Made by a program: the position numbers and the translations under genes. Positions 16,625 through 48,629 of a stretch of 48,629 bases of DNA are shown here, in pieces (within the stretch, counting starts at the first letter, position 1; each line of letters starts with the position of its first letter). Source of the DNA: Candidatus Paenibacillus intestinavium (GTDB taxonomy: Bacteria; Bacillota; Bacilli; Paenibacillales; Paenibacillaceae). The notes under the pieces are model-generated. The model was not told where the DNA came from. It worked only from the letters and a program-made list of their open reading frames with translations, and made no database searches. The DNA lies in contig DXHF01000386.1 of the NCBI GenBank assembly GCA_019113605.1, positions 1 to 48,629 on the forward strand, given 5' to 3'.

Positions 16625-17929
16625 ATGAGAAAAATATTTAGCAGTTTAATGGTTGTTATTTTACTGACTACAGTATTAGCGGCATGCGGAGGCAATAGTG
16701 CAGGGACGAATACAGAAAATACTCCAGGCACAGGCAACGGTAATAAGCTGGAAGGCAAAAGTGTTACATTGAAAGTATTTATTGCACAGCCACGCTTTAA
16801 GGAACAATATGATAAATTAGCGGAGGCCTTTACTGAGAAGGTGAAAGTTGAAAAAAATATTGATCTTACTATACAACTAGAGTTACCGAATTCAGATAGT
16901 GCACCACAAATTTTGAAAACACGTCTAGCATCCAATGATGCACCTGATGTATTTTCACTACATGCAATTAATGAAATTCCATCGTTCTATAAAGCAGGCT
17001 ACTTGGAGGATTTATCAGATCAACCATTTGTAGCAACGTTAATGGACAATATTAAATCAGCAGTTACTTCTGATGATGGGAAAGTCGTTGCTCTACCTCT
17101 AGAAACATTATCATGGGGATATTTATACAATAAAGATATTTTCGCAGAGCATAACTTAGAAGTCCCAACAACGTTAACAGAAATGAAAGCGGTTGTAGAT
17201 ACGTTGAATGCTGCTAATGTTAAACCATTTCTACTATCTTACAAAGAAGCTTGGATTCCTCAGCTATTACTTCCATTGTCTGTTGGTGCATTAATTGAAG
17301 CAGGTAATAGTGATTTTATTGCACGAATGAATAATAATGAAGGTTCATTCTCGGAAATGTCCGAAATGTTCAATATCTTTGATCTTATTAATGCGAACGG
17401 TACGGATCGTGCATTAGAGATTGGTGGCGATGATGGTGCGGCTAAGTTTGGTAACGGTGAGGCAGCAATGTGGCTACAAGGACCTTGGTTTGCAGAAACG
17501 ATCTTGAAGTCCAATGAGAATATGAACTTTGGTGTTGCTCCACTTCCAATCAATGATGATCCTAATACAACATTAATTAATCTTAGTGCTTCAACATCAT
17601 TAGCAGTTTCAAAAAGCAGTAAAAACAAAGAAGTAGCGATCGACTTTATTAATTTCATTATGAGTGAAGAGTACTCTAACGAGCTGTTCCAATCCTTAAT
17701 GTTCAACCCAACTTCGACGGTTCATACGTTTGAAAGCTTCCCTTGGGTAGATGATGCTACAGTATTTGTCAAAGAGGGTAAAGCTTATCAGGATCCTGCT
17801 ATCCCACAAGTTGTGAAGGATGAAGTAGGTAAAGGATTACAATCTTACTTTGCAGGTCAGCTTACAAAAGAGCAAGTCATAGATGCACTAGATAAAGCGT
17901 GGCAATCATTCAATAAAGTGAATAACTAA
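16625..17929 (+). CDS. ABC transporter sugar-binding lipoprotein (MalE/UgpB-type)
   Basis: Lipobox TTVLAACGGNS; SBP_bac_1-like sequence; ggaggtc RBS. Confidence 0.92.
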   Translation: MRKIFSSLMVVILLTTVLAACGGNSAGTNTENTPGTGNGNKLEGKSVTLKVFIAQPRFKEQYDKLAEAFTEKVKVEKNIDLTIQLELPNSDSAPQILKTRLASNDAPDVFSLHAINEIPSFYKAGYLEDLSDQPFVATLMDNIKSAVTSDDGKVVALPLETLSWGYLYNKDIFAEHNLEVPTTLTEMKAVVDTLNAANVKPFLLSYKEAWIPQLLLPLSVGALIEAGNSDFIARMNNNEGSFSEMSEMFNIFDLINANGTDRALEIGGDDGAAKFGNGEAAMWLQGPWFAETILKSNENMNFGVAPLPINDDPNTTLINLSASTSLAVSKSSKNKEVAIDFINFIMSEEYSNELFQSLMFNPTSTVHTFESFPWVDDATVFVKEGKAYQDPAIPQVVKDEVGKGLQSYFAGQLTKEQVIDALDKAWQSFNKVNN

Positions 17930-18013
17930 TGGGGTCGGGATGATAGTAGGGACATAATGCTGCCTATTATCATCCTTCCATTACACCAGATGGCAGGAGA
18001 AAGGAGCAGGCTA

Positions 18014-18898
18014 ATGCTACAGAAAAGCTCTAAGAAATATATTTCTTTATTGGCGTTTATAGCACCGGCTTTTATATTATATTTATGTTTCTTGCTCATT
18101 CCAACGATTAGTGGCTTATATTACAGCTTTACAAATTGGAATGGTCTGAATCCGACGTACAAATTTATCGGGCTAGAAAACTTTATTGAAATATTCAAAG
18201 AAGATCCTTACTTCATGGACTCCGTATGGTTTACATTGAAATATGTTGTGTGCATGGTAGTCTTTCAAAATGTTATTGCGTTATTGCTTGCTGTATTTAT
18301 TGAATCAAGAACAAGAAGTAAAGGCTTCTTCCGTACTATATTTTTCATGCCTAATATGATTAGTATTATTATAAGTGCATTCATGTGGACATTTATTTTT
18401 ACGCAAGTATTTCCGCAATTAGCTGAAAAAACGATATTAACTTTTTTAGGACAATCATGGATTGGCGATCCCAAATATTCCTTTATCGCTATTTTAATCG
18501 TTTCATTGTGGAACGGTGTTGGTTATATGATGATTATATATTTGGCTGGATTACAAGGTGTGCCTCAGCATTTGAAAGAGGCAGCTGTTATCGATGGAGC
18601 TAATGCTTTCCAGCAATTTAGAAACGTTACATTACCTATGATTACTCATGCCATTACCATTTGTTTATTTTTAACATTAAATAATGCATTTAAAGTATAT
18701 GAGGTTGTCTTCGGTTTAACTGGTGGCGGACCCGGTAGAAGTACTCAAGTGATTACGATGAACATATTTGAAGAGGCATTTTCCAACAACTTCAGATATG
18801 GTTATGCCAGCGCAAAGTCGGTTATTCTATTTATCCTTGTCTTAATATTCACTCTAATTCAGATTAGAATGACGAAGAAAAAGGAGGTAGAAGCATGA
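18014..18898 (+). CDS. ABC sugar transporter permease (MsmF/UgpA-type)
   Basis: EAAVIDGANAFQQFRNVTLPMI loop, GLTGGGPGRSTQVITM; the ORF opens at 17957 but 18014 has a better RBS (gagaaaggagc). Confidence 0.9.
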   Translation: MLQKSSKKYISLLAFIAPAFILYLCFLLIPTISGLYYSFTNWNGLNPTYKFIGLENFIEIFKEDPYFMDSVWFTLKYVVCMVVFQNVIALLLAVFIESRTRSKGFFRTIFFMPNMISIIISAFMWTFIFTQVFPQLAEKTILTFLGQSWIGDPKYSFIAILIVSLWNGVGYMMIIYLAGLQGVPQHLKEAAVIDGANAFQQFRNVTLPMITHAITICLFLTLNNAFKVYEVVFGLTGGGPGRSTQVITMNIFEEAFSNNFRYGYASAKSVILFILVLIFTLIQIRMTKKKEVEA

Positions 18899-19722
18899 GA
18901 ATAAAACAAATTAATTCATGGACCGTTAATATATTTTTATCATTAAGTGCAATTATTGCTATTTTTCCAATCTATATGGCTGTAATTAACTCGTTCAAAA
19001 CAGATGGAGAAATGTTCAAATCATTTATTTCGTTGCCAACAACATTACGGTTTTCCAATTATGTGGAAGCATTTGATCGTATTAATATGGTACAAAGCTC
19101 AATTAATTCTGCGATCGTTGCAGGTATAGGAATTATGGGCATCGTATTCTGTGCATCATTAGCAGGCTATAAATTATCTCGTACGAATAACAAATTAAGC
19201 AACTTTATCTTTATGTTGTTCATCGCTTCTATGCTTGTTCCTTTTCATTCGATTATGATTCCTTTAACAAGAATGGCGAAAGCATTACATGTGCAGGGCA
19301 GCATTTATGGTTTAGCAATTATTTATATTGGCTTAGGAGTTAATATGGCAGTATTCCTTTACCATGGCTTTGTAAAATCAATTCCACGGGAGCTAGAGGA
19401 AGCAGCAGAAATTGATGGTTGTAATGAGTTTCAAACGTTTTTCAAAATCATTTACCCATTATTGATTCCGATTACCGTTACAATTGGAATTTTAGACTTC
19501 CTCTGGATTTGGAATGATTTTTTACTTACATTAATTATGATTACAAATGCAGATCACAACACATTAATTCTTTCTACGAATGTACTATTTGGTGAATATA
19601 ACAAGGATTGGGCATTAATTCTTGCATCGCTAGTGTTAACGGCAGTGCCTGTTGTTGTGATGTATACATTCTTCCAACGTTATATTATGGAGGGCATTAC
19701 GGAAGGTGCAGTAAAAGGATAG
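18895..19722 (+). CDS. ABC sugar transporter permease (MsmG/UgpE-type)
   Basis: EEAAEIDGCNEFQTFFKIIYPLLIP loop; 4-bp overlap with previous gene. Confidence 0.92.
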   Translation: MRIKQINSWTVNIFLSLSAIIAIFPIYMAVINSFKTDGEMFKSFISLPTTLRFSNYVEAFDRINMVQSSINSAIVAGIGIMGIVFCASLAGYKLSRTNNKLSNFIFMLFIASMLVPFHSIMIPLTRMAKALHVQGSIYGLAIIYIGLGVNMAVFLYHGFVKSIPRELEEAAEIDGCNEFQTFFKIIYPLLIPITVTIGILDFLWIWNDFLLTLIMITNADHNTLILSTNVLFGEYNKDWALILASLVLTAVPVVVMYTFFQRYIMEGITEGAVKG

Positions 19723-19759
19723 CTTCTACTAATATGATCTTACAAAAGGGGATACAACG

Positions 19760-21751
19760 ATGAATAAGTTGCTTTATGGTGTAGCTTATTATGATGAATA
19801 TATGCCAACAGATCGTCTTGCAGAGGATATTCAGATGATGCAGGATGCAGGAATTAATGTCGTTCGTATTGCTGAATCAACATGGAGTACACATGAGCCA
19901 CAAAATGGGATTTTCGATTTTTCATCGGTTGATCGTGTACTAGATGCGATGCATGAAGCAGGTATCCATGTCATCGTGGGAACGCCAACGTATGCGATTC
20001 CGACATGGATGGTGAAGGAACATCCTGATGTATTAGCAGTGACGAAGGATGGAGCAGGGCGTTATGGCGCTCGGCAAATTATGGACATTACGCATCCTGT
20101 CTATTTGTTCTATGCAGAGCGTATTATTCGTAAATTAATGAGTAGAGTGAGTCGCCATCCAGCAGTTATCGGTTATCAGACGGACAACGAAACGAAGCAT
20201 TATGGAACTGCTGGACCAAATGTACAGTTAAAATTCGTGAAATATATGCGAGAGAAATATGAAAGCATTGATCATCTGAATGCTGAACTAGGCTTAGATT
20301 ATTGGAGCAATCGGATTAATTCATGGGAGGATTTCCCTGCGGTAGTTGGTACAATTAATGGGAGTCTTGGAGCCGAATTTGATCGTTTTCAAAGACAGCT
20401 AGTTAATGAGTTTTTGGCATGGCAAGTAAGCATCGTTAATGAATATAAGACAGAGCATCAGTTTGTGACGCAAAACTTCGACTTTGATTGGCGCGGGTAT
20501 TCATATGGTGTGCAATCGTCTGTTGATCATTATGCTGCGGCAGAACCGTTCGATATTGTTGGGGTAGATATATATCATCCATCACAGGATGAATTAACGG
20601 GAATTGAAATATCCTTCGGTGGAGATATGGCAAGGTCATTGAAGCAGAAAAACTATTATGTGATCGAGACTCAGGCCCAAGCATTTTCTCATTGGACGCC
20701 ATATCCTGGTCAATTACGTTTGCAAGCGTATAGCCATCTAGCATCGGGTGCGGAGATGGTTGCTTATTGGCACTGGCATTCGATTCATAATTCATTCGAG
20801 ACATACTGGAAAGGGTTATTGAGTCATGATTTTTTGCCTAATCCCGTTTATAATGAAGCGAAAACGATTGGTGCCGACTTTGCGCGCTTATCGGATCAAT
20901 TAATGGGATTAAGTAAGCAAAATAAAATTGCAATACTCGTAAGTAATGAAGCTTTAAGTGCAATGGAATGGTTCAAGCTACCTGATGGACGTAATTATAA
21001 TGATATTGTTCGTTGGCTATATGATGAATGCTATCGTTTGAATATGGAGTGCGACTTTATATTCCCTACAACTAGCAATATCGAGCAATATAAACTAATT
21101 ATTGTGCCTGCACTATATGCTGCACCGGATGAATTACTTCATCGCCTTAATCAATTTGTAGAGCAAGGTGGACATATTGTCTATTCCTTCAAGAGCGGTT
21201 TCGCTAATGATCAAGTAAAGGTACGGACAACAGTGCAGCCTGCGATCATCGAGCAAGCATGTGGTGTAAATTATAATATTTTCGTTAGTCCGAACAAGGT
21301 TGGACTACGTGGTACTATAAATAGTGAGTCAGGTTCAGTCGAGAGTTGGATGGAGCTATTAACGCCAACAACGGCAGAAGTATTAGCTTATTATGATCAT
21401 CCACAGTGGGGTGAATATGCCGCGATTACGAGAAATCAGTACGGCAATGGTGAAGCTACCTATATCGGTTGTATGGCTCCAGGAGAAGTGGTTCATCATG
21501 TACTGAGGGCTGCGCTTGAAAGAGCAGAATTATATGGGGCTAATCAGCAGCTACCTCCTGAAGTTACAGTGAAAACATCACTGGATTCAGATGGGAAAGA
21601 AGTGCGTTTTTATTTGAACTATTCGGCTGCTCTGGTGCAGTATTCTTATACGTATACAAGCGGTAAAGAGTTGATTAGTGGCATAACGATAGAGTCGAAT
21701 TCGCTTCAGAAGCTAGAACCATGGGGCGTGCATATTGTGCAAGCGCAGTAG
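19760..21751 (+). CDS. Beta-galactosidase, GH42
   Basis: GH42 features: GVAYYDEYMP, RIAESTWSTHEP, GYQTDNETKHYG acid/base, VIETQAQAFSHW; aaggggata RBS. Confidence 0.92.
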   Translation: MNKLLYGVAYYDEYMPTDRLAEDIQMMQDAGINVVRIAESTWSTHEPQNGIFDFSSVDRVLDAMHEAGIHVIVGTPTYAIPTWMVKEHPDVLAVTKDGAGRYGARQIMDITHPVYLFYAERIIRKLMSRVSRHPAVIGYQTDNETKHYGTAGPNVQLKFVKYMREKYESIDHLNAELGLDYWSNRINSWEDFPAVVGTINGSLGAEFDRFQRQLVNEFLAWQVSIVNEYKTEHQFVTQNFDFDWRGYSYGVQSSVDHYAAAEPFDIVGVDIYHPSQDELTGIEISFGGDMARSLKQKNYYVIETQAQAFSHWTPYPGQLRLQAYSHLASGAEMVAYWHWHSIHNSFETYWKGLLSHDFLPNPVYNEAKTIGADFARLSDQLMGLSKQNKIAILVSNEALSAMEWFKLPDGRNYNDIVRWLYDECYRLNMECDFIFPTTSNIEQYKLIIVPALYAAPDELLHRLNQFVEQGGHIVYSFKSGFANDQVKVRTTVQPAIIEQACGVNYNIFVSPNKVGLRGTINSESGSVESWMELLTPTTAEVLAYYDHPQWGEYAAITRNQYGNGEATYIGCMAPGEVVHHVLRAALERAELYGANQQLPPEVTVKTSLDSDGKEVRFYLNYSAALVQYSYTYTSGKELISGITIESNSLQKLEPWGVHIVQAQ

Positions 21752-34756: not shown

Positions 34757-35496
34757 ATCCAGGTCTCCTTTGAATAGAACTACTTTTGACCGATTAATGA
34801 TCGGCATGAAGCGATTCCAGATTTCTTGTTTTAATTATACTACGTGCTTGGATGAAAATATTGTGATAAATTTCACCTAACTCGAAAGTACGTGACATGA
34901 CTGCTATTTATAAGCAATCTAACAGATTCTAACTTTGCTCACACGAAATTAGCAAATGCTAAATTGCAATTGCCTATGACGAAAAATGAGTGAAAATAGA
35001 ATCGAAATCCAAAAGGGCTTAAGTTGTTATTTATATTATAGCCTAATATTATGAAATCGTCTCTATACTTACACAATATTTCTCGTTATTACTTGTAATT
35101 CAAAGAACTGTTCCAAAATCATCAACAATTGAATAATCACTTCTTAATTAGGAAAGGAGATGACTTTTGGCACATCCTATGTGATAAGAAGGTCATTATT
35201 GAAATGAAAGTGTCCTGAAGTCCACGATAGTATATGCAAAATCATTACAAATTATTAACAATAAGAGTGTAAAAAGTCGCAGTTAATCAATAAATGACTA
35301 TCTATATTAATAAATTATGTGGTAAAATGTAGCAAATGAGGCTGAAAAATTAAATTCCCTTCGTTATACGTTTGTCCATTTTCATACAATGTTCATAATG
35401 ATAAACTTAGAATATGGTATGAAAACTCTTGTAGACAATGGCTGTAGCGATTGTTGTACGGGGCAAAATTTAATACGGAGGGGGCTGTTCTTTACT

Positions 35497-38148
35497 ATGA
35501 ATACACAGGAAAAGCATGTGAGGATCATAAAAAGAGTGAAATTCAGTTTTCTTTCATTTCTAAGTGTTATGATTTTATTTACGTACCTACCAATAGGCGC
35601 TAGTTCAACGGATCATTTCCCTGGTAAAGTATTTTATGTCTCAACAAGCGGTTCCGATAATAATGATGGGTCTGTCGACGCACCTTGGCGTACCATTCAA
35701 TATGCAGCAGATACGATGAAAGCAGGGGAAACTGTACTAGTACGTGAAGGCATATATGAAGAAGCTATAACAATTACGAATTCTGGTTCAGCAAGTGCAG
35801 GACATATTACGTTCCAGGCTTATCCTGGGGAACTACCGATTATTGATGTATCTAACGTACCAGATACTTCATATATTGTTCAGTTCATCAATTCACATTA
35901 TGTTGTGTTCGATGGTTTTGAGCTAACTGGACTTGTATCCGATAGTTCTTCAAAGTATTTGGCTGGTATAAAAGTAACAAAGAGTGGATCCAATCTGTAT
36001 ATTATGAATAACCATTTGCACGATATTGCAAATACTAATGTAAAAGGCAATGCAAACGGTATTATCGTATATGGTAATGGAGCTCAAGCGATAAAGGACA
36101 TTACAATTTCAGGTAATCAAATTCATGATTTAATACTCGGATCAAGTGAAACAGTAACTGTTGTTGGTAATGTAGATGGATTTACGATTTCGAACAATCT
36201 TATATACAACGTGAACAATATTGGAATTGATGTAGCGGGTCATTATGGTACTTGTTCAAGTCCATGTATTGACCAAGCAAGAAATGGGGTAGTAAGCGAC
36301 AATATCGTGCATAGTGTCGATACAATTGCTAACCCAGCCTATCGAGGGGTCCGCGCTGCAGCAGCAATTTATGTTGATGGCGGGACAAATACAATAATCG
36401 AACGTAACGAAGTATACAATAATAATTATGGTATAGAGATTGCGAGCGAGAAATTTAATAAAACGACAAATAATATCGTCGTAAGAAATAATTACATTTA
36501 TAATAATCATCAATCAGGACTTATTATGGGCGGATCGTCTACAAAGAACGGCTCTGCATCTAATAATATTATTATGAATAATACATTCTATTTCAATAAC
36601 ACACTTAAAACTGGTGATGGAGAAATTACATTCCAAAACCAAGTGACAAATAATTCCTATTACAACAACATATTTTATGCAGATTCCATGACACCATTTT
36701 TCTATGATAATCGAACAGGAAATAACGGGAATTTTGTAGATTATAATATGTATTATGTATCGGGAGCTATTTCTAATCATTGGAGAGTGTATGGGACCAA
36801 ATATAACTCATTCGAAAAGTATGTAACTGCGACAAAAAGAGATGTGCATTCCATATTTGCAGATCCATTATTCACAGATGCCCAATCAGGTGAGCTTTCA
36901 TTACAAGAAGACTCTCCAGCAATTGATGCGGGTACTATAATATACGGTTCAGGTGGTACTCTCGATATTAGATCGCAACAGCGAGTATTCGGAGTAAATA
37001 TTGATTTAGGTGCATTCGAACAGAATGAACTATTAGCGCAGAATCCATCCGAAGTACCGGAGTTAACACCAACACCATCTGCTCCCGATGAAACTGGAAA
37101 AAGTATTACAATTGATGGTCTAACTAATGACTGGACTCCTTACTCAGAATTAGCAACTAGTGCATCAAATGTGAAAACATTGCAAGGGATTATTGAAGAT
37201 GACACATTATATGTATTAGTAACAGGAAACTTATTAACTGAGAAAGGTCAATTGTATATTGATACGGGCTTGGGTGAATCTACTTCATTTGCATCTACTC
37301 AATGGTCTAATCAGTTTGCATCGTATTTGCTAGAGAATGGAGCGTTATATCAATATACCGGTACAGGTAAAGACTGGAATTGGAGTAGAATTACGGACTA
37401 CAAGAAAACGAATGTAGCGATTTACTCATCAGTCGTTGAATTAGCGATTCCTTTAGAAGTCATTAATGCAAAAGGTAGTAGCAGTATTGAAGTAGGTTAT
37501 ATTTGGAAGGATTCTACTAGTAATCAACTGCCATCAGGCGGGTCAATGGCTATCGTAACTACTGTGGCAGAAATGCCAACACCAACTCCGGAGCCAACAC
37601 CGACACCATCGCTGGTACCAACACCAATACCAACACCAGAGCCGACACCAGTACCAACACCGACACCAACAGTAGATAAAATAGCTGTGGATGGTAAAGT
37701 TAAAGATTGGTCAGATATCGAAACGATTGCTACAAGCAGTAATAATATAAAGAGCTTGAAAGTAACTAATGATGATGCTAATTTATATATCTTGTTGGAG
37801 GGAAGTAAGTTAGGTGGTAAGGATCAAATTTACTTTAATTCTGATAATGATAGCAACACGGGGTATAAAATTTCAAAATGGAGCTCATCTGGAATAGATT
37901 ACTTGCTTGAAGATGGTAGATTGTATAGTTATAGCGGGGATGGGAAGTCCTGGTCGTTTACAATAAGTGAAAATTTGATAACGAGTAATAGGTATTATAC
38001 TTCCGCAAAAATCATTGAAATCGCTATTCCGTTAGACATGCTCAACCTAAGTAGATCAGATACAGTTCATTTTGGAGCTATGCTTGATGATAAAAATTCG
38101 CAAAAACTTCCTTCAAGCGGAGACATGATTAGCTATACTTTGCAATAG
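35497..38148 (+). CDS. Secreted right-handed parallel beta-helix (DUF1565/pectate-lyase-like fold) protein with two C-terminal IDG-DW domains joined by a Pro/Thr linker
   Basis: Signal-peptide-like N-terminus; FYVSTSGSDNNDGSVDAPWRTIQYAADTMKAGETVLVREGIY; Asn-rich beta-helix repeats; PTPEPTPTP linker; ggaggggg RBS before 35497. Confidence 0.85.
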   Translation: MNTQEKHVRIIKRVKFSFLSFLSVMILFTYLPIGASSTDHFPGKVFYVSTSGSDNNDGSVDAPWRTIQYAADTMKAGETVLVREGIYEEAITITNSGSASAGHITFQAYPGELPIIDVSNVPDTSYIVQFINSHYVVFDGFELTGLVSDSSSKYLAGIKVTKSGSNLYIMNNHLHDIANTNVKGNANGIIVYGNGAQAIKDITISGNQIHDLILGSSETVTVVGNVDGFTISNNLIYNVNNIGIDVAGHYGTCSSPCIDQARNGVVSDNIVHSVDTIANPAYRGVRAAAAIYVDGGTNTIIERNEVYNNNYGIEIASEKFNKTTNNIVVRNNYIYNNHQSGLIMGGSSTKNGSASNNIIMNNTFYFNNTLKTGDGEITFQNQVTNNSYYNNIFYADSMTPFFYDNRTGNNGNFVDYNMYYVSGAISNHWRVYGTKYNSFEKYVTATKRDVHSIFADPLFTDAQSGELSLQEDSPAIDAGTIIYGSGGTLDIRSQQRVFGVNIDLGAFEQNELLAQNPSEVPELTPTPSAPDETGKSITIDGLTNDWTPYSELATSASNVKTLQGIIEDDTLYVLVTGNLLTEKGQLYIDTGLGESTSFASTQWSNQFASYLLENGALYQYTGTGKDWNWSRITDYKKTNVAIYSSVVELAIPLEVINAKGSSSIEVGYIWKDSTSNQLPSGGSMAIVTTVAEMPTPTPEPTPTPSLVPTPIPTPEPTPVPTPTPTVDKIAVDGKVKDWSDIETIATSSNNIKSLKVTNDDANLYILLEGSKLGGKDQIYFNSDNDSNTGYKISKWSSSGIDYLLEDGRLYSYSGDGKSWSFTISENLITSNRYYTSAKIIEIAIPLDMLNLSRSDTVHFGAMLDDKNSQKLPSSGDMISYTLQ
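37576..37674 (+). repeat. Pro/Thr linker encoded by degenerate ccaacacc repeats
   Basis: Encodes PTPTPEPTPTPSLVPTPIPTPEPTPVPTPTPT. Confidence 0.85.
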
Positions 38149-38336: not shown

Positions 38337-40529
38337 GTGGTGATTTGTGTGAAGGTGTTAATTACAGGGGGCTACGGCTTCATTGGTTCTCATGCTGCCG
38401 ATCGTTTCTTTAAGGAAGGTTACGAAGTTTTTATTATCGATAATCTAGTGTCAGGAAGCAAAGAAAATGTTCAATTCAAGCATAAAGGTTACATACTGTC
38501 GGTTGATGATGCAAAGTGCGAGGAAGTTTTTAAAGCTAATCGTTTTGATGTTGTCGTTCATTTGGCAGCACAAGTAAGTGTTAAGAAATCATTAGTTAAT
38601 CCTAAGCTAGATACAGAAACCAATGTACTTGGGTTTGTGAATATGTTAGATCTATCTAGCAAATATAATGTTAAATCATTCATTTATGCTTCTTCTGCGG
38701 CTGTTTATGGACCACAGGATCAATTGCCTTTATCTGAAGATTCTATCTGCAGTCCAATATCACCATATGGAATTAGTAAACTTACAAATGAGATGTACAG
38801 TAATAAATGGAATGAATTATACGGATTATCTACCATTGGATTTAGATTTTCAAATGTATATGGTCCAAGGCAGAATAGTGAGGGTGAAGGAGGAGTTATA
38901 TCGATATTTATGGATCGACTTACGCAAGATAAATCCATTATTGTACATGGTGATGGAACGCAGACGAGAGATTTCATTTATGTCGAGGACGTAGTTGATG
39001 CGATATATCGTAGTGTAAACAGCTCAGCTAAAGGGGTATACAATCTATCAACGAATATACAAACTTCTCTAAACGACATTATTGAATCTCTTACCACGAT
39101 CAAGCCAATTGAGAAGATTGAATATGTTAATAAGCGAGAGGGTGACATTGATCATTCGGTTCTAGATAATACTAGAATTATGAAAGATCTAGATTGGTCG
39201 CCACTATATTCGCTACAAGAAGGTCTTGAACGAACAGCAATTTTCTTTTTGAAAAAGCACTCAGAGGAACAAGTAGCAGCAGCAGTAGTTGAAAAAACAC
39301 CTCCAAGAATAGACTTGAGCTCATTCAAGAAAACAATACTCCCGTATGCAGAAAATCTTCTAGCGTTTGCCCTTACAGCTTGGATTACTCTTAATTATGT
39401 ACATAGTGCCTATGGTGTAGTTGATGTAAGTATTTTTTACATAACTATAATAGGTATTCTCTATGGTAATAGACAGGCTGTATTATCCGTCGTACTATCC
39501 ATTGGATTATTTACATATGAGAAATTAAATGATGGTAGAGATATGATATCACTTACATACGATACAGACTTTTTCTTCCAAATAGCTATTTATATATTTA
39601 TTGGATTAGTAGTAGGCTATTCCATTGAAAGAAAAAATGCGCGCATTTCGCAGCAAGAACAAAAAATATTAGAAGTTAATGAACGATATGAATTTCTCGA
39701 GCATGTATATACTGAAGTCCGTGAAGTAAAGGATGAGTTGCAACTGCGAATTTTGAACTCTGGCGATAGCTATGGGAAGATTTATAATGCAACTAAAGAA
39801 CTTGAAAGTTTAGAGCCTGAATTAGTGTTTAATGCAGCTGTTAACGTAGTGAAATCGATTATGAAAGTAAATAAAGTTAACATCTATACGGTCAATAAAC
39901 ATCAAAGCTATTTACGCTTGCTGGCGAATTCAGGTTATAACAATAAGGAAGTATCGAAGTCATTAAGAGTACAAGATTATCCGCATTTATCTGATCTATT
40001 ATCTAATGGACAAATGTACATTAATAAACACTTAACCGAGGGCGCACCCCTTATGATGGCTCCAATTTTCCATAAAGATCGCATTTCGGCAATTATTACG
40101 ATTGATGATATGTCTTTCGAGAGTTTCTCACTATACCATCAGAACTTATTCCAAATTACGGTAAATTTAATTTCTTCTGCATTAAGTAAAGCTTTTACTT
40201 TCATCGATGCAACCGAAGGCACACGTTACATTTCTGGTACAAATATTCTTCAAAGTGATGTATTTGGAGAGATTTTGGAATCGAAATCTTTGTCAAAACA
40301 ACAGAATCACGTACCTTATTTATTGCTAAGAAGTCAACTACAAGGATTATCGATTGAAGAGGCTTCTCATCATATAACTCCTTTATTACGTGAAACTGAT
40401 TATATTGGCATTAATGAGCAACAACAATTAATGGTGTTATTATCGAATACGAGTGAACTTGATGCAGAAATTGTTCTTCAACGTTTATCTCATTCATCGA
40501 TTACGTTCGCAGCAGTCAGTGAGGAGTGA
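38337..40529 (+). CDS. pelD: Fusion: NAD-dependent sugar epimerase (GalE/PelX-like) + PelD-like (4 TM, GAF, degenerate GGDEF)
   Basis: GGYGFIGSH Rossmann motif and SPYGISK (YxxxK); then four TM segments, GAF-like region and RETDYIGIN degenerate GGDEF with RxxD. Confidence 0.85.
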   Translation: MVICVKVLITGGYGFIGSHAADRFFKEGYEVFIIDNLVSGSKENVQFKHKGYILSVDDAKCEEVFKANRFDVVVHLAAQVSVKKSLVNPKLDTETNVLGFVNMLDLSSKYNVKSFIYASSAAVYGPQDQLPLSEDSICSPISPYGISKLTNEMYSNKWNELYGLSTIGFRFSNVYGPRQNSEGEGGVISIFMDRLTQDKSIIVHGDGTQTRDFIYVEDVVDAIYRSVNSSAKGVYNLSTNIQTSLNDIIESLTTIKPIEKIEYVNKREGDIDHSVLDNTRIMKDLDWSPLYSLQEGLERTAIFFLKKHSEEQVAAAVVEKTPPRIDLSSFKKTILPYAENLLAFALTAWITLNYVHSAYGVVDVSIFYITIIGILYGNRQAVLSVVLSIGLFTYEKLNDGRDMISLTYDTDFFFQIAIYIFIGLVVGYSIERKNARISQQEQKILEVNERYEFLEHVYTEVREVKDELQLRILNSGDSYGKIYNATKELESLEPELVFNAAVNVVKSIMKVNKVNIYTVNKHQSYLRLLANSGYNNKEVSKSLRVQDYPHLSDLLSNGQMYINKHLTEGAPLMMAPIFHKDRISAIITIDDMSFESFSLYHQNLFQITVNLISSALSKAFTFIDATEGTRYISGTNILQSDVFGEILESKSLSKQQNHVPYLLLRSQLQGLSIEEASHHITPLLRETDYIGINEQQQLMVLLSNTSELDAEIVLQRLSHSSITFAAVSEE

Positions 40530-41428
40530 ACATAATGTACTTGCAATGGTATGGGATGTATCTAATTGTATCTTGGATCGTAATTATTATTTTAAACTGG
40601 AAAAACAAACGTAATATCGCAATGAAAATCATTATAGTGACCTTTTTACCGGTAGTTGGATGGATTTTGCCGATGGTGTGGTCGCGCATTCGATTGGAAG
40701 ATTCAAGTAAAGAATTTACTGAATATATCGAACGTCAACAAGAAGAGCATAAAGTTAGAAGAATAGGCATATATAACGAAATTGAAAAGAACAAAGAACT
40801 TAATGTTATTCCAATTGAGGATGCACTCGTTGTAAGTGAACATCAAGAACGAAGACAAGTTATGATTGATGTTTTGAAGCAAGATACAATTAATTATATT
40901 GAAATCTTGCAAAGAGCTGTAAGTAATGAAGATACGGAAACATCGCATTATGCAGTTAGTGCAATTATGGAGTTAAAGCGTAAACTACAAATATCTATGC
41001 AAGAGCTAACGGTTAAATATGAGAACGAACAATCCAATTTACATGTTGTCATTGCGTATGCTGAAGTATTACGTGAGTTTATGAATAGTGGCTTCTTAGA
41101 TCATAGAACACTTCGGAAATACCAATTTACGTACTTATCTGTTTTGAATCGTTTGATTGTTCTAGCTGAAGAAACAGAGTGGGCTTACATCGCCAAAGTT
41201 AATATGGAAATTAAGTTAGAACTATATGGTGATGCTGAAAAATCCGCACAACTATTCATCGAAAATTCCCCTCACAATGAAGATGCGTATTTGGCATTAC
41301 TGAAAGTGTACTTTGTTACAAGATCCAAACAAAAGCTACATTTTACGTTAGATAAGTTGAAAAATTCACCAGTGAGGTTGTCGAATCAAGCATTAACAAC
41401 GGTAAGGTTCTGGTCTGAAGGGGCATAA
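40526..41428 (+). CDS. pelE: PelE-like membrane/TPR protein
   Basis: Two N-terminal TM segments followed by a helical region with TPR-like C-terminus; overlaps the pelD stop; position in locus. Confidence 0.7.
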   Translation: MNIMYLQWYGMYLIVSWIVIIILNWKNKRNIAMKIIIVTFLPVVGWILPMVWSRIRLEDSSKEFTEYIERQQEEHKVRRIGIYNEIEKNKELNVIPIEDALVVSEHQERRQVMIDVLKQDTINYIEILQRAVSNEDTETSHYAVSAIMELKRKLQISMQELTVKYENEQSNLHVVIAYAEVLREFMNSGFLDHRTLRKYQFTYLSVLNRLIVLAEETEWAYIAKVNMEIKLELYGDAEKSAQLFIENSPHNEDAYLALLKVYFVTRSKQKLHFTLDKLKNSPVRLSNQALTTVRFWSEGA

Positions 41429-41429
41429 T

Positions 41430-43265
41430 ATGGATAAGTCTATTAAGTTTCGGCGTAACGTCTACATTATTCTAATTTGTATTCTATTATTTGCAATAGT
41501 GTCGCAGATTGCTCGATCAAGTTTGATTCTAAAATTTACAACAAATAATAAATTTGTTGAAAGAACGGAATGGATTGAGATGATGAACCAAGCTCAAAGT
41601 ACTAAGACGGTTTCATCATCATCAGACAATCATTGCATAGTTACTGATTCAGAAGATTCATTGAGTAATGAAATGGAAGATAACTTTGCAGAAGTATACC
41701 GTTATATTAAACAACCATATACGATTCAAGATGTGGGCAAAGAAACGATCACAATGTCTTCATGTTCAGCAGTTATAATGATCTCTTCATTGGAGAAGAT
41801 GGGAGATTACATTGAAGATATTGAACATTATGTTGATAACGGTGGACATTTTTTCCTTGCAAGAATGGATCATCCTGGTAATGTACTAACACAAATATAT
41901 CGTAAGCTTGGTATTAATAATTATTGGTTCGTTATTGGAAATACTGATGTTCGATTTACGTCGAATCTATTAATTGGACAGAAGGATGTAGTATTTGAAG
42001 ATGACTATTTTTACAATGATTCCTTATCTTTGGAATTAGATTCTGCTAGTAAGTTATTAGCTACAGGAAAAGATCAGACGCCTTTAATATGGGAAGTGGA
42101 CTATGGTGAAGGATCATTCATGGTCTATAACGGAAATAATTTGGGGATGAAAGCTAATCGTGGATTAGTTGTTGGTTGTATTAGCTTAATGATCCCGAAT
42201 TATATTTATCCTGTGTTTAATTCGAAAATATTTTATATCGATGATTATCCTGCGCCTATGAGTCAAGAGATAAACGTACAACTATACAATGAATATCGTA
42301 AAAACATCGCTGCTTTCTTTAAGGATATTTGGTGGCCAGATATGATAAAAGCTGCGAGAAAGTATGATCTCAAATATACTGCTGTAGCCATTCAAGATTA
42401 CAATGATGACGTTACGTATCCATTCGGCTCTATGCATAAAGATGATTTTACTAATCTTATTGTTTATGGTAGGGAAGTATTGAAGAGTGGTGGGGAAATT
42501 GGGATACATGGTTATAATCATCAGCCATTACAATTTCGTAAAGATATAGCGGATTTTTATGAGTATAAAAAATGGGAATCGATCGATGATATTGAAGCTT
42601 CCATTGAAGAAGTAGTGGAGTATATGGCGCAAGCATTTCCAAACTACTCACCGGTTAGTTATGTACCGCCTTCTAATATCATTAGTGAAGAAGGTAGGAA
42701 GGCATTAGTTGAAAAGTGGCCAGATTTCCGAGTCATTTCCAGTCTATATGAAGAAGACCCATTAGATTATGCTTATGTGCAAGAATATGAAATTGCTAGT
42801 GATGGGATTATAGAAATGCCTCGGGTTACATCTGGTTATGCTGATGCGGCAGACACCAAATGGTTAGAAGCAAATGTAATGACATCTTTAGGAATCATTT
42901 CTCACTTCATTCATCCGGATGATATTTTTGATACTCATCGTAGCGGTGATAAAAATTGGAGTCAACTATATGAAGGCTTCGAATCGATGTTACACAGAAT
43001 GGAAGTAACGTATCCATGGTTACGTGCTCAGACTTCTAGTGAAGCAGCATTAAGTATGGGATATGTATTAAGTAGTCAAATTACGAGAAACACTTCTGAC
43101 AATCAAGTTGAAGTTAGCATTACAAATCAAGCCGTTACGCAATATTTCATTCTAAGAACGGAAAAAAAGATTGGAAAACTTGTAGACTGTAATGTCAATA
43201 AAATTGATGAAAATACGTATCTAGTTACGGCTGATTCAGAGCATTTCACAATTGAATTGAAGTAG
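41430..43265 (+). CDS. pelA: PelA deacetylase-like (DUF2194) protein
   Basis: N-terminal TM anchor; FYIDDYPAPM and EIGIHGYNHQ (D...HxxxH CE4-like metal motif); position between pelE and pelF. Confidence 0.78.
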   Translation: MDKSIKFRRNVYIILICILLFAIVSQIARSSLILKFTTNNKFVERTEWIEMMNQAQSTKTVSSSSDNHCIVTDSEDSLSNEMEDNFAEVYRYIKQPYTIQDVGKETITMSSCSAVIMISSLEKMGDYIEDIEHYVDNGGHFFLARMDHPGNVLTQIYRKLGINNYWFVIGNTDVRFTSNLLIGQKDVVFEDDYFYNDSLSLELDSASKLLATGKDQTPLIWEVDYGEGSFMVYNGNNLGMKANRGLVVGCISLMIPNYIYPVFNSKIFYIDDYPAPMSQEINVQLYNEYRKNIAAFFKDIWWPDMIKAARKYDLKYTAVAIQDYNDDVTYPFGSMHKDDFTNLIVYGREVLKSGGEIGIHGYNHQPLQFRKDIADFYEYKKWESIDDIEASIEEVVEYMAQAFPNYSPVSYVPPSNIISEEGRKALVEKWPDFRVISSLYEEDPLDYAYVQEYEIASDGIIEMPRVTSGYADAADTKWLEANVMTSLGIISHFIHPDDIFDTHRSGDKNWSQLYEGFESMLHRMEVTYPWLRAQTSSEAALSMGYVLSSQITRNTSDNQVEVSITNQAVTQYFILRTEKKIGKLVDCNVNKIDENTYLVTADSEHFTIELK

Positions 43266-43273
43266 GTGTATTT

Positions 43274-44728
43274 ATGAGGATTTGTATAATTGCAGAAGGC
43301 TCATATCCTTATGTAACGGGCGGAGTATCAAGCTGGATTCATGAAATTATAACGCAGATGTCAGAACACGAATTTGTTATTTATTCGATTGCAGCTCAAA
43401 CGAGTCAAAAAGGGATATTCAAATACAAACTCCCAGAAAACGTTGTAGAGATAAAAGAAACATTTCTCGATACTTACTTAACGGAAAAGGGAAATTGGGG
43501 AAAAAGATTCAAATTAACGGATCAGCAAAGACAAAATTTCATGAAACTACTCGGTGATCATGGTGATATTGAGTGGGATAATTTATTTACCTTATTAAGA
43601 AATCGGCAATTCAATCAAGTATCAGATTTTTTGGCTAGTAAAGATTTTTTTGATATATTAGAAAAATTATGTCATGAAAGATATCCATTAGTACCGTTTA
43701 CAGAAATGTTTTGGACGGTTCGTTCGATGATCTTACCGTTATTTTTGACCATTCGAGATGAACTGCCCGAAGCAGATTTATATCATAGTGTATCCACAGG
43801 GTATGCTGGAATTGTCGGAGCAGTTGCCAAACATATTAATAATAAGCCATTCCTCTTAACCGAACATGGAATCTATTCGCGTGAGCGTGAAGAGGAAATT
43901 ATTAAAGCGGACTGGGTTAAAGGGTATTTTAAAGATATGTGGATTCAATATTTCTATCGTCTTTCTACATGTGCCTATGAGAATGCAAATTGGGTAACTA
44001 CTTTATTTGGACGCAATAAAGAGATCGAGATTGAACTTGGCTGCGATGAAAATAAGATAGAAATTATCCCGAATGGTGTAGATGTTAAAAATTATGTGGG
44101 ACTAAATCAGACTAAGCCGAGCAATCAAGTATACATTGGAGCAATTATACGCGTTGTACCGATTAAAGATATTAAGACAATGATACAAAGTTTTGCATTA
44201 ATTAAGGAAGAAGTACCAAATGCGGTATTTTTCATCATGGGTTCCTATGAAGAGGATGAAGAATACTACGGGGAATGTCTCCAATTAGTTAAAGTACTAA
44301 AAGTTAAGGATGTAAAATTTACAGGAGCAGTTAACGTTAAGGAATATATCGGAAAAATGGATGTTCTTATGCTGACTAGTATTAGTGAGGGACAGCCGCT
44401 AGCTATATTGGAAGGGATGGCTGCTGGAAAACCTTATGTAGCAACTAATGTTGGTAGTTGCAAAGAGCTACTAGAAGGTCTGGATGATGGAATTGGTCCC
44501 GCGGGCTTTGTTACCCCAGTTATGCATTATGAATTACTTGCTCAGGCAGCAATTAAATTGTGTATGAATGTGAAATTAAGATCTGAGATGGGACAAAATG
44601 CACTCAAACGTGTTCAATTGCATTATAGACAAGAAGAGGTAATCTTAAATTATCGTAGATTATACTTCGATTTGGGGGGGGATTTGAATGGCAGGGATCG
44701 GGTTCGAGCTGCGCAAACTCTTTCATAA
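43274..44728 (+). CDS. pelF: PelF glycosyltransferase (GT4)
   Basis: MRICIIAEGSYPYVTGGVSSWIHEII; IPNGVDV; EGQPLAILEGMAAGKPYVATNVGSCKELL. Confidence 0.93.
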   Translation: MRICIIAEGSYPYVTGGVSSWIHEIITQMSEHEFVIYSIAAQTSQKGIFKYKLPENVVEIKETFLDTYLTEKGNWGKRFKLTDQQRQNFMKLLGDHGDIEWDNLFTLLRNRQFNQVSDFLASKDFFDILEKLCHERYPLVPFTEMFWTVRSMILPLFLTIRDELPEADLYHSVSTGYAGIVGAVAKHINNKPFLLTEHGIYSREREEEIIKADWVKGYFKDMWIQYFYRLSTCAYENANWVTTLFGRNKEIEIELGCDENKIEIIPNGVDVKNYVGLNQTKPSNQVYIGAIIRVVPIKDIKTMIQSFALIKEEVPNAVFFIMGSYEEDEEYYGECLQLVKVLKVKDVKFTGAVNVKEYIGKMDVLMLTSISEGQPLAILEGMAAGKPYVATNVGSCKELLEGLDDGIGPAGFVTPVMHYELLAQAAIKLCMNVKLRSEMGQNALKRVQLHYRQEEVILNYRRLYFDLGGDLNGRDRVRAAQTLS

Positions 44729-47700
44729 AGAAGGGTTAATAAACAATGTTAAGGCGTACGCATATTCCTCACTCTCGACAGTAGGTCCAATGATATTATG
44801 TATGTTACTCATTATTGGTCTACAAAGAGTGATGTCCTATAACGGGAGTAGTTATTTGGAATGGGAGTTATATATTGCAACCGTTTCTTATTGCTTTATA
44901 TTTTCCATCGTAGTTACTTCAGGGATATCAATGGTGTTAACTAGATATATTGCAGATATGTTATACCAACGCCAATATTCAAAATTAATGTCATCCTATT
45001 ATGGTTCATTAATGATTATGATCCCAGTATGTTCCGTAGTAGCAGCTACATTTTTAAGTGGTGTAAGTGCTGAGTTTTCGTATAAAGTAGCTGCATATTT
45101 CTTCTTTATGTTGTTAGTTATTATATGGATTCAAGGTGTCTATTTGTCAGCATTAAAAGATTATATTCGTATTGCACGAGGATTTATTATTGGTGCGGTA
45201 CTTGCGTTAATTGTCGGATGGTTAGTGATGTACTTCTTTAATGTATCTACAGTAGTAGGCGCATTAATTGGGCTAGATGTAGGTTTCTTAGTTATTGCAA
45301 TATTATCGGGCCTTCACTTCCAACAAAAATTTCCCAGAGCAGATATAAAATCTTACTTTGAATTTTTAACTTATCTCAAAAAACATCCGACACTATTTTT
45401 CGCAGGGCTTTTCGTATATTCGGGAGTATATTTGCATAACTTTGTATATTGGCTAAGTGATCATGGTGCAGTAATCGGAGAACAATTTAGAGTATATATG
45501 TTCTATGATGTCCCGGTCTTCTATGCATTTTTGTCTGTTATGCCAACTCTAGTAACTTTTGTTGTATCCGTTGAGACTTCTTTCTATGAGAAGTTTAAAG
45601 TCTATTATCTAAATGTACTATCTGGAGGAACTATTCAAGATATTGCAGCAGCAAAAAAACAAATGCAAAAAACATTAACGAGAGAGATTAGTTTTCTAAT
45701 GGAAATTCAATTGTTGTTCACTGTAGTGTCCATTGGTTTAGGTATTAAATTTTTGCCGGCTATTGGATTTACAATGGAGCAATTAGATCTATTTATTATT
45801 TTAGCGCTAGCATATTTCTTATTTATTATGTTATTCGTATTTATTCATGTACTTATGTACTTCGATGATCAGAAGGGCGTGTTTTGGACGGGACTTATAT
45901 TCTTTACTCTAAATATTGTTTGTACGTATGTCATGATGAGCGTAGGATATGACGGCCTTGGAATCTTCATTGCTTCCTTTATTTCCATCATCATTGTCAT
46001 TTCTAGATTGTTACATGTTTTGCGAAATGTTGATTACTTTACATTTTGTTCGCAGCCTATAAACACTGTTGAAACCAAACCAAGAAATTCCGTTAAGCAT
46101 AAGTCAGGGATTCTATTCTCTAGTCTTATGATTTTCATTGTAGTATTAACGGGATGTACCACTTTGGAGGTTGATGAGCAGGATACACCTTTACAAAGTA
46201 CAGCTAACTTAGCGACGATACCTCAAGACATCGATACCAGTTTAGTTGAAGACAAACGAATCTATGAACGTGATGACGATGGATCGCTAAAGACGTTATA
46301 TATTACGGTATTGCCTTACAGAGAGCGTGATGGAGAGTTTGATTGGTATGCCCTTAACCGACAACAAGATAAAACAACGGGTAGAGAGCTAGATGTTATT
46401 GTTCAAGAAGGATTAAGTGACGGTCTAGGTCCTAAAGCTGGTATGTTTGGCTACGGTGCTTCTGTAGCAAACGCATCGATTGGTGTAAGAGGAAACTCCG
46501 CATGGGATCGAGTTCAAAAATCATATAAAGTTGAATTGTTTGCTGAAGCAGGTCAGTATATGGACCAAGAGCGACTTAATCTTAATAAACATATCGATGA
46601 TCTATCCAGATTGCGGAATAAGCTAGCATTTGACTTGATGGAAAAAATACCGAATATGACGAGTTTAAGAACGCAATTCGTACAAGTGTATGTTAAAGAC
46701 TTGTCCAATGGGCAAACAAATGCAACGTATGAAGATTACGGTTTGTATACCAATGTTGAACAGCCCAACAAGCAATTTTTGAAGTCTCATCTATTGGACC
46801 CTAATGGTAACTTGTATAAAGTTAAGTTTTTCGAGTTCAATCGTTATGAGGATCAAATTAAAGAAGTATCGGATGCAAACTACAGTGTAGCTAAATTTGA
46901 AGAGATCTTTGAGATTAAAGGTAGAGAAGACCATTCTAGATTAATTGAAATGTTGGAAGCAGTAAATAATTATAGTATTCCAATTGAGGAAACGATAGAT
47001 AAATATTTTGATTTGGATAATTTCCTAACTTGGACCGCTATGAATATTATGATGGACAATATGGATACGGATGCTAATAACTTCTTCTTGTATTCTCCAT
47101 TAAACATTGATAAATGGTACTTCTTACCGTGGGACTATGATGGAGGCTGGGAGTTACAGCGTAATCTTAATTTCATTAGACCATACCAATCAGGTATTAG
47201 TAATTATTGGGGTGTAATTCTTCATAATCGCTACTTCAGAGATGAAGCTAATATTGAGTTATTGAGAAATAAAATGGATGAATTATCACAATATATTAAT
47301 AGAGATACGATTCAGACTCAGCTTGATAAATATCGAGATGTTGTAGAGCCATTCTTATATCGTATGCCTGATATGAAATACCTACCGGAGCAAAATTCTA
47401 ATTTTGAAAATGAACTAGCTACCATTCTTGCTACTCCTGAAAGAGGAATGGAGAGGTTCTTAGCTGATCTAGAAAAGCCCAAGCCGTTTTATATGAATGA
47501 TGTTATTCAGGATGGACAAACATTACACTTCGATTGGGGTGTATCATTTGATCTCCAGGATGATAAATTACTTTATACACTGACTATAGCGACAGATAAA
47601 TTTATGGAAAATATAGTGCATGAGAAGACGGATATTAAAGAAATTCAATACGAATTGAATGGCTTAGCGAAAGGTACTTATTTCTGGAGTGTTGTCGTTG

Positions 47701-47795
47701 AAGATGAACATGGAAACAAACAAGATTCATTTGAAATCTATATTGACTCACAGGAAGAACTCTTCTACGGTATAAGAGCATTTGAGGTGAATTAG
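44688..47795 (+). CDS. pelG: Fusion: PelG-like multi-TM exporter/synthase + internal lipobox + CotH-kinase domain
   Basis: MAGIGFELRKLF PelG N-terminus and ~12 TM; lipobox VVLTGC (Cys490); CotH motifs GVRGNSAW, YGLYTNVEQPNKQF, MDTDANNFFLY, FLPWDYDGGW. Confidence 0.88.
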   Translation: MAGIGFELRKLFHKEGLINNVKAYAYSSLSTVGPMILCMLLIIGLQRVMSYNGSSYLEWELYIATVSYCFIFSIVVTSGISMVLTRYIADMLYQRQYSKLMSSYYGSLMIMIPVCSVVAATFLSGVSAEFSYKVAAYFFFMLLVIIWIQGVYLSALKDYIRIARGFIIGAVLALIVGWLVMYFFNVSTVVGALIGLDVGFLVIAILSGLHFQQKFPRADIKSYFEFLTYLKKHPTLFFAGLFVYSGVYLHNFVYWLSDHGAVIGEQFRVYMFYDVPVFYAFLSVMPTLVTFVVSVETSFYEKFKVYYLNVLSGGTIQDIAAAKKQMQKTLTREISFLMEIQLLFTVVSIGLGIKFLPAIGFTMEQLDLFIILALAYFLFIMLFVFIHVLMYFDDQKGVFWTGLIFFTLNIVCTYVMMSVGYDGLGIFIASFISIIIVISRLLHVLRNVDYFTFCSQPINTVETKPRNSVKHKSGILFSSLMIFIVVLTGCTTLEVDEQDTPLQSTANLATIPQDIDTSLVEDKRIYERDDDGSLKTLYITVLPYRERDGEFDWYALNRQQDKTTGRELDVIVQEGLSDGLGPKAGMFGYGASVANASIGVRGNSAWDRVQKSYKVELFAEAGQYMDQERLNLNKHIDDLSRLRNKLAFDLMEKIPNMTSLRTQFVQVYVKDLSNGQTNATYEDYGLYTNVEQPNKQFLKSHLLDPNGNLYKVKFFEFNRYEDQIKEVSDANYSVAKFEEIFEIKGREDHSRLIEMLEAVNNYSIPIEETIDKYFDLDNFLTWTAMNIMMDNMDTDANNFFLYSPLNIDKWYFLPWDYDGGWELQRNLNFIRPYQSGISNYWGVILHNRYFRDEANIELLRNKMDELSQYINRDTIQTQLDKYRDVVEPFLYRMPDMKYLPEQNSNFENELATILATPERGMERFLADLEKPKPFYMNDVIQDGQTLHFDWGVSFDLQDDKLLYTLTIATDKFMENIVHEKTDIKEIQYELNGLAKGTYFWSVVVEDEHGNKQDSFEIYIDSQEELFYGIRAFEVN

Positions 47796-48506
47796 TTGTT
47801 ATTTAGAGGGAAAAGGTTACGCACAGAGCAGAAATATTATTTACATTTGCATGATTATATCTCGCTAAGGAGTAAGCTAGCAACGACGCTTTCACTAGAT
47901 TCACACTCAATTGACCACGATGGTTATAATATTCGAAGCTTATATTATGATGACCCGAAAAATACGTCATTAGAACGCAAAAATGATGGGATATTTAAGC
48001 GGGAAAAGTTTCGGATACGTATTTATAACGATTCGGATCAATTTATCGCTTTAGAGCGAAAAACGAAATTAGGGGAATATGTTTGCAAAGAATCCAAACA
48101 AATTAGTAGAGCAGAATATGATCAAATGATGCGCGGGGAATATGAGTTTCTTAAGCAATCCAATGAACCACTTATGATGGACTTTTACGTTGCAATAAAC
48201 ACGTATGGTTATAAACCAATGTCGATCGTAGATTATTGGCGGGAAGCTTATATTTATGAATATGGTAATGTAAGGATTACTTTTGATAAAAGATTAGCTG
48301 CAGGTGTGAACACGATTGACTTATTTGATCCGCAGTTAGCTTTAGACGAAGTGGTTACTACTTCATCTACGATAATGGAAGTTAAGTATGATGAAATACT
48401 TCCTGAGCGTGTGAAACAAATCATTGCTCCAGCAAGTCATGTTCGTTCTAGTATTTCAAAATATGTTCTTTGTAGAGAAAAAATATTGCAGCACTATACG
48501 CAATAA
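47796..48506 (+). CDS. VTC-domain polyphosphate polymerase-like protein
   Basis: RTEQKYYL, RSLYYDDP, KREKFRIRIY, FIALERKTK, YWREAYIYEY, IMEVKYDEILPE, SISKYVLCRE. Confidence 0.88.
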   Translation: MLFRGKRLRTEQKYYLHLHDYISLRSKLATTLSLDSHSIDHDGYNIRSLYYDDPKNTSLERKNDGIFKREKFRIRIYNDSDQFIALERKTKLGEYVCKESKQISRAEYDQMMRGEYEFLKQSNEPLMMDFYVAINTYGYKPMSIVDYWREAYIYEYGNVRITFDKRLAAGVNTIDLFDPQLALDEVVTTSSTIMEVKYDEILPERVKQIIAPASHVRSSISKYVLCREKILQHYTQ

Positions 48507-48542
48507 GTATATTCCATTACGCATAAGAGTCGGAGGAAAAAA

Positions 48543-48629
48543 ATGAATTTCAATGATATTATTAAACAAAGTGTAATTACACTAGAGAACTTCCGTTCAG
48601 TATCCTATTTCGATATGGTATTAGGATTA
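48543..48629 (+). CDS. Start of a DUF4956-like membrane protein gene (truncated by window end)
   Basis: ggaggaaaaaATG; MNFNDIIKQSVITLENFRSVSYFDMVLGL; family suggested by sequence and neighbourhood only. Confidence 0.5.
   Translation, partial: MNFNDIIKQSVITLENFRSVSYFDMVLGL

Follow-up and report, generated by a model that had tools for sequence, protein, structure and literature searches.

The window analysed here is the entire contig C254 (DXHF01000386.1; 48629 bases) of Candidatus Paenibacillus intestinavium, and our study concerned positions 38337–48629, which hold a Gram-positive Pel exopolysaccharide operon that includes a CotH kinase-like domain, a VTC polyphosphate (polyP) polymerase-like protein and a DUF4956 protein. 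Its distinguishing feature is that the exporter PelG and CotH form one chain with a predicted lipoprotein signal between them. Six open reading frames (ORFs), all on the plus strand, lie at 38337-40529, 40526-41428, 41430-43265, 43274-44728, 44688-47795 and 47796-48506, with gaps of -4, +1, +8, -41 and 0 bases between them. As assigned by Pfam and NCBIfam profile searches and, for PelE, by position and homologues, they encode PelD extended by a short-chain dehydrogenase/reductase (SDR) domain, PelE, the PelA deacetylase (DUF2194), PelF, the PelG–CotH fusion and VTC. A seventh frame starts at 48543 and runs for 29 codons to 48629; 28 of these 29 residues are those of the N-terminus of a complete DUF4956 protein in a genome of the same genus (L063). 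Because contig C254 ends there, the operon is incomplete, cut by the assembly and not by nature. A preliminary description, made from the sequence alone, had placed the six tightly packed ORFs at these positions, named the families, read them as a single operon and noticed the seventh start; all of this was upheld (for PelE, through position and homologues), and we regard the gene identities as nearly certain. The internal lipobox, the intact epimerase residues of PelD and a second VTC–DUF4956–CotH set in the same genome are additions to that description.

The PelG–CotH polyprotein

PelG and CotH share a single open frame of 1035 aa. The PelG domain (44688–46046, plus strand), a MOP-superfamily exporter that adjoins PelF, matched PF16933 with 411 bits (cut-off 29; E 9e-123), and the CotH kinase-like domain, which with a C-terminal beta domain occupies 46245–47795, matched PF08757 at 46482-47426 with 203 bits (E 1e-59). 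Between the two, at 46059–46157, lies a predicted type II (lipoprotein) signal sequence, which thus follows PelG, some 470 residues away from the N-terminus. Its n-region spans residues 458-472 and its h-region residues 473-489 (46104-46154), and it closes with the lipobox LTG/C, in which the codon of Cys490 is 46155-46157. The segment, VKHK-SGILFSSLMIFIVVLTGC, fits the succession of n-region, h-region and lipobox [LVI][ASTVI][GAS]C.

Of the 37 distinct fusion sequences found, one (L142) is from Lachnospiraceae and the other 36 are from Bacilli. In a PelG tree the 36 formed a single clade with a support of 99 by the SH-like approximate likelihood ratio test (SH-aLRT) and L142 stood apart, indicating two fusion origins. 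Among the 37, the linker was the least conserved part of the protein, with a mean majority fraction of 0.35 versus 0.69 for PelG and 0.70 for CotH, and from Y450 to Y538 Cys490 was the sole invariant residue. Every fusion matched a relaxed form of the signal pattern and had a hydrophobic stretch of 13–22 residues (typically 17) closed by the lipobox Cys; position -3 was Leu in 32 of the 37, and position -1 was Ala, Gly or Ser in all of them. The mean net charge was +4.9 in the K/R-rich stretch before the hydrophobic segment and -2.5 in the acidic, Ser/Pro-rich stretch after it. When changes were counted by parsimony on the 36-sequence clade, using a tree built without the linker, the Cys had changed 0 times, position -3 five times and position -1 seven times, compared with a mean of 17.9 (median 19) for linker columns. 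A wider scan of the order found the lipobox Cys in 18/18 further fusions, at least three of which duplicate earlier sequences.

An AlphaFold2 (AF2) model of PelG–CotH (mean predicted local distance difference test score, pLDDT, 79) placed a 16-residue helix at 473-488, ending just before Cys490 and flanked by low-confidence linkers; the PelG half matched MATE and MurJ transporters by fold. An in-frame start with a Shine-Dalgarno sequence ahead of the hydrophobic stretch was present in only 1 of the 37 fusions (L142). We therefore rejected the idea that translation of CotH begins anew within the fused frame, and CotH of the Bacilli clade is apparently made solely as part of the fusion. In five loci of related Paenibacillales on our first map, CotH was unfused and carried an ordinary N-terminal lipoprotein signal. 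The conserved internal lipobox predicts that Lgt and LspA (signal peptidase II) act within the chain and release CotH as a surface lipoprotein. The simplest reading would be that a lipoprotein gene became fused to pelG and that its signal has been retained by selection as an internal Lgt/LspA site, and from these patterns of conservation we consider internal processing of PelG–CotH quite probable. The genome (G000) carries three LspA homologues, on contigs C195, C64 and C458, and such paralogues could bear on how the internal lipobox is processed.

The Pel core, the CotH–VTC–DUF4956 genes and their distribution

The other Pel genes were assigned on motifs and profiles as well. SDR-PelD (38337–40529) comprises an N-terminal UDP-sugar 4-epimerase-like domain, a transmembrane (TM) region, a GAF domain and a degenerate GGDEF domain. 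The first of these matched Pfam Epimerase at 1e-58 and, as its top PDB match, the UDP-glucose 4-epimerase 4zrm at 5e-68, with the SDR residues GGYGFIGS, Y144 and K148 intact. In a motif survey, the SDR domains of Bacilli loci retained the glycine motif, Ser, Tyr and Lys with few exceptions (L066, for example), and the domain was degenerate in most Lachnospiraceae, Coriobacteriia and Selenomonadales versions. PelD also bears a cyclic di-GMP (c-di-GMP) inhibitory-site motif, RETD (R685-D688), followed by R716; the R, D and R were invariant among relatives (alignment A5), and in B. cereus the RxxD motif and the downstream Arg are required for c-di-GMP binding. The genome carries 14 GGDEF matches. 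The PelE-like membrane protein (40526–41428; 300 aa) would owe its name to its position and to conserved homologues, which the mapped relatives carry at the site flanked by pelD and pelA_DA. PelA (41430–43265; 611 aa) matched DUF2194 at 4e-151 and PDB 9zau at 3.6e-80, with yIDDyP, HGYNH, VPPSN, PRxTSGY and HPDD aligned, so that all carbohydrate esterase (CE) catalytic residues (DD/HxxxH/P/R/HPDD) have their counterparts; the same residues are described for B. cereus PelA_DA (PMC13254593). PelF (43274–44728), a GT4 glycosyltransferase, matched the equivalog family NF038011 with 370 bits (cut-off 100; E 2e-110). From these matches PelF and PelG are predicted to be the synthase and exporter of a Gram-positive Pel operon.

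CotH aligned with B. cereus CotH (5jd9) by sequence at 9e-13 and by fold at 3e-11, with a template modelling (TM) score of 0.79 on the target; the NxD and PWDYD motifs are aligned, and the catalytic-type residues are D793 and D816/D818. Having retained these kinase-type residues, CotH is a predicted kinase. VTC (47796–48506; 236 aa; Pfam 3e-37) is a chain free of TM and SPX segments. It matched yeast Vtc4 (3g3q) by profile at 2.9e-12, and its AF2 model (pLDDT 92) had Vtc4 structures as best Foldseek matches (3g3r, 2e-13). K13, R73, R75, E87, K89, K98, R149, R160, E195, K197, S221 and K222 were invariant in 51 VTC proteins, and the tunnel fold has kept the Lys, Arg, Glu and Ser-Lys residues that we take to bind substrate in Vtc4. 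By residues and modelled fold, VTC would on balance be expected to make polyP.

The occurrence of these genes was surveyed in order-level relatives and across species represented by one genome each. An identically ordered block was found in Paenibacillus, Brevibacillus, Cohnella, Lysinibacillus, Cytobacillus, Psychrobacillus, Solibacillus and Rummeliibacillus, and also in many Lachnospiraceae, Streptococcus ferus, Erysipelotrichaceae, Coriobacteriia and one Sphaerochaetaceae metagenome-assembled genome. Among 110 sampled PelG loci, CotH, VTC and DUF4956 were all present in 94, all absent from 12, and in 4 only DUF4956 went undetected; these four are this contig and L160, both of which end before or within DUF4956, and L172 and L182. 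One query (A1) included CotH, so CotH-bearing pel loci are over-represented in this sample. A fairer, unbiased search of relatives with PelG only gave 31 loci with all three genes and 4 with none. Because the trio is near all-or-none across the 110 loci, the block is not a chance arrangement, and the co-occurrence that the preliminary description proposed to look for is not confined to one genome. In three loci (L055, L149, L163) a tandem cotH pair separates pelG from VTC. Pel loci of Selenomonadales and of a few Clostridia/Tissierella (L188, L189, L191-L193, L195-L197) had no CotH, VTC or DUF4956 in the fetched flanks; PelD is extended in most of them, and most of these lineages have an outer membrane. 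Since L192, L195 and L197, of this Selenomonadales type, have an SDR-type PelD without CotH, we rejected the idea that the PelD epimerase always accompanies the CotH module.

Nor is the module exclusive to Pel, an idea we likewise rejected, as VTC–DUF4956(–CotH) occurs at loci without a recognised pel cluster. At such loci 20 further VTC genes were fetched, and DUF4956 adjoined VTC in 20/20. The genome under study has a second set on contig C541 (L068; 330-3409), reversed in order relative to the pel set; its CotH is a lipoprotein, and a metallophosphatase-like secreted protein adjoins it on the opposite strand. In the two VTC–DUF4956–CotH loci checked for this (L099, L105), a calcineurin/purple-acid-type phosphatase gene likewise adjoins on the opposite strand. 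A third VTC class (E ~1e-50; L111, L113 and similar) also pairs with DUF4956, and in L111 the pair lacks CotH and adjoins a Cthe_2159 beta-helix carbohydrate-binding protein and a two-component system. In L110, L158 and L171, a divergent cluster resembling pel begins with CotH–VTC–DUF4956 and also encodes a PelF-like GT4 (~590 aa), unknown proteins of 415 and 600 aa, and a membrane protein that in L110 shows weak similarity to PelG, below the cut-off; L171 has an HD-domain protein in addition. This cluster is possibly an undescribed exopolysaccharide system.

Directly upstream of pel, at 35389–38148 on the plus strand, lies a gene for a secreted right-handed beta-helix protein of 919 aa (Pfam Beta_helix 3e-8, DUF1565). 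A homologue adjoins pel in L044, L049, L050, L052-L054, L057, L058, L061-L063, L119, L121, L123, L131-L134 and L187, and lies 3' of pel in L122 (Rummeliibacillus); within the fusion clade, one sub-clade has inherited the protein together with the operon. Because no PelA hydrolase gene was noticed near pel, it is a candidate Pel-acting hydrolase or matrix protein. There was no Rfam match for a c-di-GMP riboswitch in the window or near pel in six relatives, and counts of internal promoters and terminators did not exceed those of shuffled sequence and are uninformative. Further upstream, window positions 8783-21751 hold a xylan/glucuronoxylan utilisation cluster with glycoside hydrolases (GH67, a GH10-GH43 fusion, GH42), ABC sugar transport and sensor kinases.

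Proposed mechanism and alternatives

We favour, with fair confidence, the view that the locus is the Bacilli form of a known sub-type of Gram-positive Pel operon, gated by c-di-GMP and carrying cotH, polyP-polymerase and DUF4956 genes, in which PelG–CotH is processed internally. PelD would make or channel UDP-GalNAc and, with c-di-GMP bound, switch on the PelF/PelG synthase-exporter, while PelA_DA would deacetylate the polymer. PelG–CotH would enter the membrane with 12 helices and the internal signal sequence; Cys490 would be lipidated by Lgt, and LspA would cut the chain before it. The products would be PelG in the membrane and, one-to-one with it, a CotH lipoprotein on the outer face, beside the polymer exit. 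By analogy with yeast Vtc4/Vtc1, VTC and DUF4956 may form a membrane-bound polyP synthase and translocator; together with CotH they would tune the matrix (its adhesiveness or amount) without being needed for making Pel. That polyP or phosphorylation acts on the matrix, as the preliminary description inferred, is possible but doubtful.

Several points weigh against this view. The GAF_3 match of PelD is weak and under the Pfam cut-off, and a PDB search with the PelD profile (A5) at E 0.01 gave no match, not even to the solved structure of P. aeruginosa PelD; PelD loci of Gram-positives have been described as divergent (PMC7112194). PelE has no Pfam or NCBIfam match. Many clostridial CotH proteins carry a plain TM anchor, so lipidation of CotH is not universal, and the conservation of Cys490 could have another reason. 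An extracellular kinase would have no obvious supply of ATP. Finally, no effect was reported for deletion of the VTC-type polyP polymerase in Streptococcus intermedius (PMC12345266), and polyP may thus be irrelevant to Pel.

Two alternatives concern the fusion itself. The fusion might stay uncut, its hydrophobic stretch serving as a 13th TM helix that tethers external CotH to PelG and its Cys at most being lipidated, or used for a disulfide or a metal. The predicted helix and the positive-inside charge pattern suit a membrane span, and the fusion could be explained simply by a need to hold CotH at the exporter. However, the stretch is short for a TM helix (13-22 residues, typically 17), and under this reading the Cys, the Leu at -3 and the small residue at -1 should have drifted like the rest of the linker; they are instead the lipobox positions, with the Cys unchanged, and we consider the tether unlikely. 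The fusion might also be an assembly or frameshift artefact, as G000 is a fragmented, metagenome-type genome in 577 contigs with 84% completeness. We rejected this, and give it a negligible chance, since the single frame recurs in dozens of genomes, single-contig ones among them, and PelG is 96% identical to that of G002.

The functions of CotH and VTC, and their tie to Pel, were open to other readings. It is conceivable, if rather less probable than not, that the two do not act on phosphate as assumed: CotH could serve for binding or as a scaffold, or could phosphorylate the glycan or a secreted protein, and VTC could be a sensor of the triphosphate-tunnel type that binds or hydrolyses polyphosphates or nucleotides. 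The fold of VTC also matches triphosphatases and class IV cyclases, no phenotype is reported for the VTC-type mutant of S. intermedius, and in the literature examined in vitro activity of a Pel-locus CotH or VTC is not reported. Yet the best fold and profile matches of VTC are to the polyP polymerase Vtc4, with the tunnel residues retained, and CotH aligns with B. cereus CotH with NxD and PWDYD conserved. A still more doubtful idea is that CotH-VTC-DUF4956 has a surface function of its own and rides along as a passenger cassette, co-transcribed with pel only because both are wanted in biofilms. The module does occur away from pel in many relatives and as the second copy in this genome (C541), but at the pel loci of distant taxa it is present complete or not at all, with its gene order fixed, it has been fused to pelG in two independent lineages, and deletions of cotH and DUF4956 alter Pel level or aggregation in S. 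intermedius.

More broadly, VTC–DUF4956 might be a general surface-polyP machine of bacteria, drawing on cytosolic ATP to make polyP and delivering it to a partner outside, though we hold this to be an unlikely, speculative extension. The partner could be, at pel and other loci, a CotH lipoprotein kinase taking phosphate from polyP instead of ATP, or a polysaccharide-binding protein of the Cthe_2159 beta-helix type. If this were so, the cationic Pel matrix made by pel loci would be cross-linked by the anionic polymer or by phosphorylation, and the PelG-CotH polyprotein, through its internal LspA site, would position the kinase where the polymer is exported.

As VTC–DUF4956 recurs widely beside surface partners, the idea of polyP at the bacterial surface can be put to the test, and the polyprotein offers a direct and simple way to probe the kinase's route to the surface. 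The polyprotein further suggests that lipoprotein signals may be functional midway in multi-spanning proteins.

Comparison with known systems

The preliminary description knew of no account of this exact arrangement, but one exists. The relevant passages of Whitfield et al. (2020; PMC7112168) describe cotH, poly-phosphate polymerase, DUF4956 and DUF4832 genes contiguous with pelDEADAFG, and report the cotH/polymerase/DUF4956 arrangement in streptococci, clostridia and bifidobacteria. They also report PelD fused to an SDR domain in Brevibacillus, streptococci, clostridia and actinobacteria, and put phosphorylation forward as a means of control. The operon analysed here shares the genes and their order, the SDR extension of PelD and the contiguous cotH-polymerase-DUF4956 genes with that system. 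It differs in having PelG fused to CotH through a linker that bears a lipobox, a fusion that does not appear in the paper's passages on CotH, and in that no DUF4832 gene was noticed 3' of DUF4956 in the mapped Bacilli loci. The epimerase residues are intact here, whereas the corresponding passage gives them as altered in all extended PelDs outside Brevibacillus; Paenibacillus is not mentioned in the paper's main text.

The genes themselves were tested in 2025, when each was deleted in S. intermedius (PMC12345266). The core pel genes were essential and all four accessory genes dispensable for making Pel; the cotH-like mutant had less Pel and aggregated less, and the DUF4956-like mutant had more Pel, yet also aggregated less. 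These deletions make CotH, VTC and DUF4956 modifiers of Pel and not parts of its synthase. That locus (SIR_1591-1594) shares the CotH-type, polyP-polymerase-type and DUF4956-like genes and provides the sole experimental data on them, but its CotH is unfused, unlike the one here, and streptococci use no c-di-GMP. The same study found the three-gene synteny only at Pel loci, whereas we also found it outside classical Pel loci, in keeping with an older report on C. perfringens NELoc-2 (PMC2879425).

The pelDEADAFG operon of Bacillus cereus ATCC 10987 shares the core genes, the c-di-GMP site and the PelA_DA catalytic residues, but as described lacks cotH, VTC and DUF4956, has no SDR domain on PelD and keeps galE separate. 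With the yeast Vtc4/VTC complex the VTC protein shares the catalytic tunnel domain by profile, fold and residues; unlike the yeast protein it has no SPX or TM segment in its chain, and DUF4956 is its putative membrane partner by analogy with Vtc1.

The operon type is therefore known, and what appears to be new is the PelG–CotH polyprotein, an exporter and a surface kinase joined by a conserved internal lipoprotein signal. In titles and abstracts we found no obvious precedent for internal lipoboxes or polytopic lipoprotein fusions, which does not establish that none exists. A parallel is the cytochrome b/c1 polyprotein of Bradyrhizobium (FbcH), in which a polytopic membrane protein and an exported protein are likewise made as one chain and an internal signal is cut; there the processing is of the signal peptidase I type, whereas PelG–CotH carries a signal peptidase II motif.

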